Shown: one piece after another, positions 1,510 to 53,812 of the stretch | Position numbering within the stretch: position 1 is the stretch's first letter | Layout of the letters: each line of letters starts with the position of its first letter | NCBI RefSeq assembly: GCF_000236585.1 | Contig: NC_017278.1 | Location: forward strand, 310,001-374,000 | DNA length: 64,000 nt | Reading direction: 5' to 3' | From: Thermus sp. CCB_US3_UF1 | GTDB lineage: Bacteria; Deinococcota; Deinococci; Deinococcales; Thermaceae | Made by a program: the position numbers and the translations under genes | The notes under the pieces: model-generated | The model's input: only the letters and a program-made list of their open reading frames with translations | The model's database searches: none | What the model was told of the DNA's origin: nothing

Positions 1510-3522
1510 TCAGGCCAGGCGTAGGGGTTCCACCTCCACCGGGGTGGCGTGGAAGGTGCTCCCGCCCCCCAGGTCGGTGAGCCCTTCCGAGGTGAGGTGG
1601 TTGATGCCCTTGCCGTCCGGGGCCCATTTTTCCCACCAGATGCCCTCGAGGACCACCGTCCCCGGGATGGGGGCCTCCGTCACCCGCGCCCGGCGCACCA
1701 CCTGCCCCCAAGGGGAGCGGAGGTAGACCAGGCCCCCGTCCGTCACCCCCCGGGCTTCCGCATCCTGGGGGTGGATGAGGAGGAGGGGCTCCCCCCCCTC
1801 GGCCTCCGCCAGGGCCGCCACGTCCCCGTAGGTGGAGTTGAGGAAGCGGGGGGCCGGGGGGGTGAGGAGGACCAGGGGGTAATCGGGCAGGGGCTCGGTG
1901 GGCAGGACCTGGGGAGGGGGACTGAAGCGCACCGGCCCCCGGGCGAAGGGGAGGAAGGGCTTGGGCAGGCGGAGCTTGAGGAAGCCCTCGGCCTTGAGCC
2001 TTTCCAGGGTGATGCCTTCCAGGTAGGGGTGGTCCGTGTCCAGGAGGCTTCGGGCCACCTCCTCGGCGCTCCAGTAAAGGGTGGGCTCCTCCAGGCCGAG
2101 CCTTTGGGCCAGTTCCCGGAAAACCCAGGTGTTGGGCCGGGCCTCCCCTTGGGGTTCGGCCAGGGGCTCGTTCCAGGAAAGGTAGTAATGGCCGTAGCTG
2201 GTGTACAGGTCCGGGTGCTCGTAGAAAAGGGTGGCGGGGAGGAGGTAGTCGGCGTAGCGGGCGGTTTCCGTCATCACCTGTTCCAGGACCACGGTGAAGA
2301 GGTCCTCCCGTTCCAGGCCCGCCCGCACCTTGCCCGTGTTGGGGGCCACCACCAAGGGGTTGGTGTTGAAGACGAAAAGGGCCCGGATGGGGGGCTTGAG
2401 CCCCGTGAGGGCGGTGCCCAGCTGGTTCATGTTGATGGCCCGCACCCCGGGGTTGGGGCGGAAGTAGCCCCGGTGGGGGTGCCGGCCTTCCAGGAGGTGG
2501 CGCCCGCCCAGGAAGCGCTTGTTGAGGGGGAAGGCCCCGCTGGTGGAGAGCATGGCCCCGCACCCGGGGTAGCGCCAGGCCCCCAGGAGGGCGGGGAGGA
2601 GGAGGACCGCCCGCAGGCTGTTCCCCCCGCCGGGGTGGCGGGTCATGCCGTAGCCCACCCGCAGGAAGACCCGCCTGGCCTCCCCCAGCTCCCGGGCCAG
2701 GCGGCGGATGGCCGGGGCGGGCACCCCGGTGAGGGCCTCGGCCCGCTCGGGGGTCCAGGCCTCGGCGGCTTCCTGGAAGGCTTCCACCCCCGTCGCCGCC
2801 TCCTCCAGGTAGGCCCAGTCCACCAGCCCCTCCCGGAAGAGGACGTGGGCCAGGGCGTAGGCCAAGGCGGCGTCCGTGCCCGGGCGGAGCTTGAGGTGCT
2901 CGTGGGCGAAGCGGCTGGTGAGGTTGGCGTAGGGGTCAATGTGCACCACCTTGGCCCCCCGCCTTTTGGCCTCCTTGAGGAAGGGGGTGAGGTGGCTGTG
3001 GGTGGCAAGGCTGTTTACCCCCCAAAGGAGGAGGTAGCGGGCGTTTTCCGGGATTTCCTCCGGGTCGGGGGCCATCCTGGGGCCATAGGTCATCTCCCAG
3101 GCGGCGCTTCCCGTGCTGGCGCAGATGGTTTCCAGGAGCTCGCTGGCCCCGATGGCCCGGAAGAAGGCCAGGGGATGCTGGTTCTCCACCAGGCCCATGG
3201 TGCCGGCGTAGTGGTAGGGCAGGACCGCCTCCCCCCCGTACCGGTCCAGGATGGCCCGGAGCCGGGCGGCGATCCCCTCCAGGGCCTCCTCCCAGGAAAC
3301 CCGCTCGAACCGGCCCTCCCCCTTCCGCCCCACCCGGCGCAAGGGGTAGAGGAGCCTCTCCCTTACCCGCTCCGGGTAGCGGTAGGTTTTGCCGCAGGCG
3401 AAACCCTGGGTGATGGGGTGGCGGGGGTCCCCTTCCACCCGGACCAGGCGCCCCCCTTCCAGGGTGAGGAGGAGGCTGCAGGCGTCGGGGCAGTCCAGGG
3501 GGCAGGTGGCGCGGGCCTTCAT
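1510..3522 (-). CDS. Cytoplasmic molybdopterin oxidoreductase (DMSO reductase family)
   Basis: This 670-residue protein belongs to the molybdopterin-guanine-dinucleotide oxidoreductases. Near the N-terminus are cysteines C7, C11, C15 and C43 (pattern CPLDCPDAC...FACGK), the ligands of the [4Fe-4S] cluster. The central motifs (LLLWGVNSLATHSH, YADYLLPATLFYEHPD) and the C-terminal molybdopterin-binding domain are all present. There is no twin-arginine signal, so it should act in the cytoplasm. The substrate cannot be read from the sequence, and no membrane anchor or iron-sulfur partner gene is adjacent. I chose the ATG at 3522 because a TATGCT box lies 7 bases upstream; an in-frame ATG at 3534 is possible but would overlap that box. 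rnhB starts divergently 18 bases away. Confidence 0.85.
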   Translation of the reverse strand: MKARATCPLDCPDACSLLLTLEGGRLVRVEGDPRHPITQGFACGKTYRYPERVRERLLYPLRRVGRKGEGRFERVSWEEALEGIAARLRAILDRYGGEAVLPYHYAGTMGLVENQHPLAFFRAIGASELLETICASTGSAAWEMTYGPRMAPDPEEIPENARYLLLWGVNSLATHSHLTPFLKEAKRRGAKVVHIDPYANLTSRFAHEHLKLRPGTDAALAYALAHVLFREGLVDWAYLEEAATGVEAFQEAAEAWTPERAEALTGVPAPAIRRLARELGEARRVFLRVGYGMTRHPGGGNSLRAVLLLPALLGAWRYPGCGAMLSTSGAFPLNKRFLGGRHLLEGRHPHRGYFRPNPGVRAINMNQLGTALTGLKPPIRALFVFNTNPLVVAPNTGKVRAGLEREDLFTVVLEQVMTETARYADYLLPATLFYEHPDLYTSYGHYYLSWNEPLAEPQGEARPNTWVFRELAQRLGLEEPTLYWSAEEVARSLLDTDHPYLEGITLERLKAEGFLKLRLPKPFLPFARGPVRFSPPPQVLPTEPLPDYPLVLLTPPAPRFLNSTYGDVAALAEAEGGEPLLLIHPQDAEARGVTDGGLVYLRSPWGQVVRRARVTEAPIPGTVVLEGIWWEKWAPDGKGINHLTSEGLTDLGGGSTFHATPVEVEPLRLA

Positions 3523-3528
3523 GGCCTT

Positions 3529-3535
3529 TAGCATA
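3529..3535. promoter_or_regulatory. Overlapping bidirectional -10 element TAGCATA
   Basis: Read on the plus strand, TAGCAT (3529-3534) ends 6 bases before the rnhB GTG at 3541. Read on the minus strand, TATGCT (3535-3530) ends 7 bases before the oxidoreductase ATG at 3522. Both start codons fall where transcription should begin, so one 7-bp patch may drive two leaderless mRNAs. Confidence 0.5.
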
Positions 3536-3540
3536 AGGGG

Positions 3541-4179
3541 GTGGAGCGGGAGATGGAGGCCCTCGAGGCCCCCTTCTGGCGCCAGGGCCTGCGCGTGGCG
3601 GGGGTGGACGAGGCGGGCCGCGGGGCCTGGGCGGGCCCCATCGTGGTGGGGGCGGTAGTCCTGCCCCCCGGGGTCTACCCTTTCCGAGACTCCAAGCGCC
3701 TCTCCCCTCAGGTCCGGCGCCGGCTGGCGGCGGAGGTGCGGCGGGTGGCCTTGGGCTTCGCCCTGGGGGTGGCCGAGGTGGCGGAAGTGGACCGGCTGGG
3801 GGTGCTGAAGGCCACCCTCCTGGCGGCGGAGCGGGCCCTGGCCCTTTTGCGCCCACCCCCGGAGGCCCTGGTGACGGACTACCTGGCCCTTTCCACCCCC
3901 CTTCCCCTCCTGGCCCCCCCCAAGGCCGACGAGGAAAGCCCCAGCGTGGCCGCGGCCAGCATCCTGGCCAAGGTCCACCGGGATGCCCTTATGGAGGAGC
4001 TGGACCGCCTCTACCCCGGCTACGGCTTTGCCCAGCACAAGGGCTACGGCACCGAGGAACACCGGGAGGCCCTGTTCCGCCTGGGGCCTTCCCCCGTCCA
4101 CCGCCGGTGCTTTGCCCCCGTGGCCCAGGCTCCCTTAAGGTTTTCTGAAGCGGAGGGGGAAGGGGAAGGGCTAAGCTGA
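3541..4179 (+). CDS. rnhB: Ribonuclease HII
   Basis: RNase HII cuts the RNA strand of RNA-DNA hybrids and removes single ribonucleotides from DNA. The 212-residue protein carries GVDEAGRG (D23, E24), FRDSKRLS, VTDY (D113) and KADEESPSVAAASILAKVHRD (last Asp D148), matching the family's four acidic metal ligands. The C-terminal region HKGYGTEEHREAL and SPVHRRCF is also typical. I chose the GTG at 3541 because TAGCAT lies 6 bases upstream; an ATG at 3553 would also keep the fold intact. The last residues (SEAEGEGEGLS) are an acidic tail. The lipoprotein gene follows after 14 bases and is probably cotranscribed. Confidence 0.95.
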   Translation: MEREMEALEAPFWRQGLRVAGVDEAGRGAWAGPIVVGAVVLPPGVYPFRDSKRLSPQVRRRLAAEVRRVALGFALGVAEVAEVDRLGVLKATLLAAERALALLRPPPEALVTDYLALSTPLPLLAPPKADEESPSVAAASILAKVHRDALMEELDRLYPGYGFAQHKGYGTEEHREALFRLGPSPVHRRCFAPVAQAPLRFSEAEGEGEGLS

Positions 4180-52445: not shown

Positions 52446-53066
52446 TCACCAGAGGCGAAGCAGCGCCTCCAGGCTTGCCCTCAAGTTTACCAGGCCCACC
52501 CCATAGGTGGGTATCCCCAGGGCCCGGCCCACCCCTCCCAGGTAGGGCCCTTCCCCCTGGGGCAGGTCCAGGGGGAGGGGGGGGCTTTCCCAGGGGCCGT
52601 AGGCCCGCACCTCGCGGTAGGTGAGCCCGGTGGGGGCTTCCACGTGGAGGACCAGGGCGGCCCCGGGGGCTTCCAGGGACCCCCAGCCTGCCTGGGTTTC
52701 CTTTCCCCCGGGGTAGGTGAGGCCCAGGCCTTCCCCGGGGAAGGCCAGGAGGAGGCGGTCGGGCCGGGTTCGCTCCAGGAGGTGTTCCAGGGGGGCCCGG
52801 GTGGGTCCGGAAAGGGGGACCTCTTCCCGGGTAGGGGAGAGGGGGGAGGGGTCCAGGGCCAGGAGGAGGCGGCCGCGGAAGGAGAGGCCATTCAGGGCCT
52901 GAAGCACGGGCAGGGCCTCCTCATAGGGGGCGTGGAGCAGGGTGGTGCGCCCACCCCGGCCCCCTTCCAGGTAGCAGAGGAGGGTGCCGAACTCGTCCAG
53001 GCCTGCCCGTAGGTGCCCGGAGAGGACCTCCAGATCCTGCGAAAGCCTTTCCAGAAGCGCCGGCAT
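52446..53066 (-). CDS. Hypothetical protein
   Basis: A 206-residue soluble protein, MPALLERLSQDLEVLSGHLRAGLDEFGTLLCYLEGG, continuing with RTTLLHAPYEEALPVLQALNGLSFRGRLLLALDPS and ending LGIPTYGVGLVNLRASLEALLRLW. It has alternating strands and helices but no motif I recognise. It reads divergently from the phosphoesterase gene, with 23 bases between start codons. TACCAT ends 6 bases before the ATG at 53066. A small membrane protein follows. Confidence 0.6.
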   Translation of the reverse strand: MPALLERLSQDLEVLSGHLRAGLDEFGTLLCYLEGGRGGRTTLLHAPYEEALPVLQALNGLSFRGRLLLALDPSPLSPTREEVPLSGPTRAPLEHLLERTRPDRLLLAFPGEGLGLTYPGGKETQAGWGSLEAPGAALVLHVEAPTGLTYREVRAYGPWESPPLPLDLPQGEGPYLGGVGRALGIPTYGVGLVNLRASLEALLRLW

Positions 53067-53072
53067 GCCCTC

Positions 53073-53082
53073 ATGGTATCCT
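53073..53082. promoter_or_regulatory. Overlapping divergent -10 elements ATGGTATCCT
   Basis: The plus-strand TATCCT (53077-53082) ends 7 bases before the GTG at 53090. The minus-strand TACCAT (53078-53073) ends 6 bases before the ATG at 53066. The hexamers share two base pairs, and both starts have the leaderless layout. Confidence 0.45.
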
Positions 53083-53089
53083 AAGCGGC

Positions 53090-53812
53090 GTGCGCTACCT
53101 GGTCCTCTCGGACATCCACGGGAACTGGCCCGCCCTCGAGGCCGTCCTCCAGGCTGCCCCCCCCGTTGACCGGGTGCTTTTCCTGGGGGATGCGGTGGGC
53201 TACTACCCCGACGGGGACCGGGTGCTGGACTGGTTGATGGAGGTGGGGGCAGAGTGCGTCCTGGGCAACCACGACGCCTGGCTTTTGGCCCTGGACCGCC
53301 TGCCCGTGGAGGGGGCGGTTTTGGAGATCCTGGCCTGGCAGCGGGACCGCCTCTCCCCCGAGCACCTGGCCTTTTTGGGCTCCTGGCCCTGGCAAAAGGA
53401 GGTGGAGGGGGCGCTTTTGGTCCACGGTAGCCCCTGCGACCCCTTGGAGTACCTGGACGACCTGGAGCCGGCCCGCCAGGCCTTTGCCTGCACCGAGGCC
53501 CGCCTGGCCTTTCACGGCCACACCCACCTGGCGGGGGCCTTCTTGCAGCTTTCCGGGCCCCGGCCCTGGGTCCGCTACCAGGCCTTCCGCCAGGGCGGGG
53601 AGCTCCTTCTGCCCCCCAAGGTGCGGGCCCTGATCAATCCGGGCTCGGTGGGCCAGCCCCGGGACGGGGTTCCCGGGGCGGCCTTCGCCCTTTGGGAAGG
53701 GGAGCGGGTGGAGTTCTTCCGGGTGGCCTACCCCTTGGAGGAAGTGGAGGCCCGCCTGCGGGAGGAGGGCTTTCCCCCATGGCTTTGGGAGCGGCTCAGG
53801 GTTGGGGAATAG
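53090..53812 (+). CDS. Metallophosphoesterase (YfcE/MJ0936-like)
   Basis: A 240-residue calcineurin-like phosphoesterase. The five metal-binding blocks are all visible: LSDIHGN (residues 6-12), FLGDAVGYYPDG, VLGNHDAWLL, LVHGSP and FHGHTHLAG. A C-terminal strand region INPGSVGQPRDG fits the bis(5'-nucleosyl) or phosphodiesterase-type subgroup. The substrate is not known. The GTG at 53090 is set by the TATCCT box. holB starts within its last 34 bases, suggesting that it heads the holB operon. Confidence 0.92.
   Translation: MRYLVLSDIHGNWPALEAVLQAAPPVDRVLFLGDAVGYYPDGDRVLDWLMEVGAECVLGNHDAWLLALDRLPVEGAVLEILAWQRDRLSPEHLAFLGSWPWQKEVEGALLVHGSPCDPLEYLDDLEPARQAFACTEARLAFHGHTHLAGAFLQLSGPRPWVRYQAFRQGGELLLPPKVRALINPGSVGQPRDGVPGAAFALWEGERVEFFRVAYPLEEVEARLREEGFPPWLWERLRVGE

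Follow-up and report, generated by a model that had tools for sequence, protein, structure and literature searches.

Two divergent genes in the 64,000-nucleotide stretch of DNA analysed here (the window) are separated by 18 bp, and the question raised by this locus is how two mRNAs could be started in opposite directions from so little intergenic DNA. On the minus strand lies a molybdopterin oxidoreductase gene (1510-3522, ATG at 3522), an open frame of 670 aa with PF04879, PF00384 and PF01568, whose protein reached the cut-off of no listed NCBIfam family. On the plus strand lies rnhB, the gene for RNase HII (3541-4179, GTG at 3541), an open frame of 212 aa that scores above cut-off for PF01351 and NF010538. 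Judged from the sequence, the heptamer TAGCATA within the gap (3529-3535) probably acts as a bidirectional, -35-less housekeeping promoter for both genes, one of a class that recurs in Thermus.

Geometry of the intergenic gap

Reading of positions 3520-3543, CAT GGCCTTTAGCATAAGGGG GTG, confirmed that the minus-strand ATG and the plus-strand GTG are 18 bp apart (gap, 3523-3540), as an earlier note on this DNA had described, and the spacings given there for TAGCATA were correct as well. The heptamer reads as TANNNT on both strands: TAGCAT (3529-3534, plus), the predicted -10 of rnhB, ends 6 bp before the GTG, and TATGCT (3530-3535, minus), the predicted -10 of the oxidoreductase gene, ends 7 bp before the ATG. 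Both are no better than average as -10s. No good match to a -35 was found at the expected distance from TAGCATA, and no sigma-70-type -35/-10 promoter was found on either strand within 3350-3750. For the plus -10, the -11A falls at 3530 and the -7T at 3534, with a predicted RNA start at 3541; for the minus promoter, the predicted RNA start is 3523 or 3522. On the opposite strand, the partners of A3530 and T3534, T and A, would serve the minus element as its -7T and -11A, respectively.

TANNNT spacing in this genome

In Deinococcus-Thermus, leaderless or -10-adjacent ORFs carry TANNNT 6-7 bp from the start, do not need a -35 and make up ~20-40% of genes (PMC12340547, PMC3160421). Such -10-only promoters 6-7 bp from ORFs drive reporters in D. 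radiodurans, and in T. thermophilus transcription rises past -10-only motifs near ORFs (PMC12340547). The spacings of 6 bp to GTG 3541 and 7 bp to ATG 3522 are the same as those of these ORFs; the two papers differ in treating single genes, and neither "divergent" nor "bidirectional" occurs in the relevant sense in the texts searched.

Start statistics for the present genome were collected over 344 kb (15% of the genome), with genes and starts called by coding potential only, using a null model and overlap control, and motifs were counted over the whole genome. Of 329 genes, 70 (~21%) have a TANNNT ending 6 bp (43 genes) or 7 bp (27 genes) ahead of the start, compared with mostly ~2-3 genes, and at most 8, at any other spacing, a background of ~1% per spacing. 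The 6-7 bp arrangement is present at 38 of 100 starts with a divergent neighbour versus 32 of 229 codirectional starts. At the predicted leaderless starts, TTGACA as a -35 at the right distance was barely above random. In 37% of leaderless promoters the base after TANNNT is an A, so the two-way heptamer arises in part without selection for two-way use.

The locus in other Thermus genomes

In most of the 27 Thermus genomes, a carboxylesterase gene (PF00135; for example L039, 3515-5008, minus strand) separates the oxidoreductase gene from rnhB. In a search with positive controls, neither the window's genome nor the four others in which the two genes adjoin had this gene. Comparison of the 18-bp gap with other Thermus genomes, which the earlier note had proposed, recovered the two-way element as TAGCATA or TAGGATA in G000, G013, G025 and G009, always with a minus spacer of 7; in G016, the genes adjoin across a longer gap.

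Genomes bearing the esterase gene have TACTAT or TACTCT 6-7 bp before the oxidoreductase ATG, within the last esterase codons, and the codons that carry this -10-like element use CTA, which accounts for 3% of leucine codons here. In most Thermus genomes rnhB has other neighbours, and there too a -10-like element lies near its start; in G026, G006 and G017, the gap between the esterase gene and rnhB is 22-24 bp, with a TANNNT, identified by eye, 6 bp from both starts. The presence of adjacent -10s at the separated genes of these relatives indicates that each gene mostly has its own -10 without the two being neighbours.

Among the four compact genomes, identity is 73-93% over the 15 nt that precede the minus gene, compared with 76-80% at its third codon positions over 200 codons and 88-96% at those of its first 25 codons. 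The upstream stretch is thus not clearly above third positions. These four genomes alone do not prove purifying selection on the gap, and the case for two-way use draws mainly on geometry and the class described below. In a weakly resolved tree of the oxidoreductase, in which recombination is possible, the four compact genomes were not a clade, which makes transfer or repeated change possible. This tree did not support the single origin that had been expected for the compact arrangement.

Start codons of the two genes

The prediction of a leaderless oxidoreductase mRNA is well supported, because TANNNT lies 6-7 bp before the ATG of this gene in the Thermus genomes inspected; no well-placed SD was seen for it. 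The coding-only gene caller picked another in-frame minus-strand ATG, at 3532-3534 within the -10 itself. This ATG is probably not a genuine start, because an RNA begun near 3522 could not include it, and it is a likely source of wrong start annotation.

For rnhB, two starts have to be weighed. A leaderless GTG is normal in this genome, as GTG begins 23 of the 70 predicted leaderless genes in the 344-kb sample. An alternative ATG (3553-3555) sits at the position of the start codon in many relatives, and in the alignment of rnhB starts a GGAG (3543-3546) that could serve as its ribosome-binding site lies 6 bases upstream; this combination would make an equally good rnhB start. In that event, the shared -10 would still drive both genes, and rnhB RNA beginning at 3541 would be translated from ATG 3553, leaving only the oxidoreductase mRNA leaderless. 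This is a sub-variant of the explanation favored here, with which its confidence overlaps, and we would place it a little below an even chance. The relatives point both ways. In G009, GGGGAGGAGG precedes the sole in-frame rnhB start, which is 17 bp away from the -10 and forces an SD leader of ~10-11 nt, whereas in G013 the only rnhB ATG follows the -10 by 8 bp, which leaves no room for an SD leader and forces a near-leaderless start. Across the four compact species, the nearest usable rnhB start is 6, 8, 8 or 17 bp from the -10. The view of the earlier note that both mRNAs would be leaderless is therefore well supported for the oxidoreductase gene, given its TANNNT at 6-7 bp, but is not certain for rnhB, given ATG 3553 with its GGAG and the leader in G009.

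A proposed shared -10 used in two orientations

We infer transcription, start sites and polymerase competition at this locus in the following form. Sigma-A RNA polymerase would engage TAGCATA in either of two orientations, which would be mutually exclusive because the key bases of each -10 (-11A and -7T) pair with those of the other. Directed towards rnhB, the polymerase would start RNA at 3541 or an adjacent base, and RNase HII would be translated from GTG 3541 without a leader or from ATG 3553 behind a leader of 12 nt; directed the other way, it would start at 3523 or 3522 and produce a leaderless mRNA for the molybdopterin oxidoreductase. Both directions would be expected to be active, never simultaneously, because -10-only promoters near ORFs drive reporters in D. 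radiodurans and are followed by a rise in transcription in T. thermophilus (PMC12340547).

Bidirectional promoters with symmetric -10s (Warman et al. 2021, as set out in PMC12825309 and PMC10268837) have starts 18 or 23 bp apart (PMC12825309). In the 18-bp configuration, -11A and -7T are reciprocally paired between strands, and T is the most common base at -18 of bidirectional promoters without being a requirement (PMC10268837). The present locus shares with the 18-bp promoters the overlapping -10s on opposite strands, the paired -11A and -7T (3530/3534) and the 18-bp distance between predicted starts (3541 and 3523). It differs in having coding genes on both flanks, with each predicted RNA start placed at a start codon, so that the gap would consist of the promoter only. 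It also has no -18T, as 3523 is G on the plus strand and 3541 is C on the minus strand.

Two-way -10 elements as a recurring arrangement

Sites with a two-way -10 between opposed start codons were counted in two registers. In the heptamer register, CAY-N5-6-TANNNTA-N5-6-RTG, 14 sites were found in the genome versus none for the reversed motif and none for ATNNNAT, both composition-matched; the corresponding total for the 27 Thermus genomes was 334, against 16, 37 and 20 in controls. With the mean of the three genus-wide controls as expectation, the Poisson probability of the 14 sites is ~1e-12. In the decamer register, ANNNTANNNT, in which the hexamers overlap by TA only and gaps are 22-24 bp, there were 16 sites here versus none in the control, and 470 versus 20 across the genus; the heptamer and decamer registers correspond to the 18- and 23-bp classes of bidirectional promoters, respectively (PMC12825309). 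Strong coding potential on both flanks was present at 8 heptamer and 14 decamer sites, or 22 pairs, and the gaps of the at least 22 divergent pairs with overlapping -10s are 17-24 bp. The TAGCATA arrangement is not chance. The shared two-way -10 proposed in the earlier note is well supported by its spacing, by the enrichment in genome and genus over composition-matched controls, by its presence in four species and by its fit to the published geometry, but it is not exceptional, with at least 22 similar pairs in this genome. As a strongly supported prediction from sequence, the locus would be a minimal variant of the known bidirectional promoter, leaderless on one or both sides and without further intergenic DNA, and the case is ordinary within Thermus.

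These counts also bear on the possibility that the -10 of one strand only is used, most likely that of the minus strand, with the promoter of the other gene lying inside the opposite gene. A single -10 would be enough for one gene, and the plus spacer varies more across species than the minus spacer, as this would allow. We nevertheless consider it unlikely, since the interval 3350-3750 offers no sigma-70-type promoter on either strand, rnhB has a nearby -10-like element beside other neighbours in most other Thermus genomes, and the joint spacing is found again at 22 pairs. That TAGCATA is a chance AT-rich patch, retained after a deletion joined the two genes, is very improbable: compactness does accompany the missing carboxylesterase gene, so the junction could be an accident, but where the esterase gene is present, each of the two genes already has a -10-like element next to it, and the controls gave none against 14 heptamer sites.

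Extending the shared-promoter reading from this locus to the genus, we lean towards a standing class of at least 22 pairs per Thermus genome in which the whole intergenic DNA would be one two-way -10, leaderless on both sides. Geometry alone would set the gap, at 17-19 or 22-24 bp, and the orientation of the polymerase would be the sole switch between the two mRNAs. A literature search found no paper describing such a class, and an earlier mention in De Groot 2014 or Warman 2021 is possible. Should the predicted starts be used, the pairs would be among the smallest possible divergent control regions, with the promoter and the RNA and translation starts of two genes contained in 18-24 bp, no leaders and no space for activator sites in the gap. 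Such pairs would offer a clean natural system for studying how polymerase chooses its orientation and whether expression is limited by opposing transcription, and promoter geometry could be used to correct start annotations in Thermus.

In most other Thermaceae, the heptamer register still exceeded its control, and results beyond this family were inconsistent. In some more distant genomes of the order (G029, G031-G034 and G072-G073), the two-way motif was about as frequent as its reversed control and hence gave no signal.

Members of the class, named by eye from N-terminal sequences, include apparent alaS, uvrC, miaA, ispD and uppP. Two further gaps contain TAGCATA itself (the two cases covered by L088 and L091): one separates an apparent miaA from the gene divergent to it, the other an apparent mannose-6-phosphate isomerase gene from the gene next to it; the 24-mer at the miaA site is unchanged in several Thermus genomes. 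The window contains another compact divergent pair at 53066-53090, with a gap of 23 bp, ATGGTATCCT, in which TACCAT lies 6 bp from an ATG on the minus strand and TATCCT lies 7 bp from a GTG on the plus strand.
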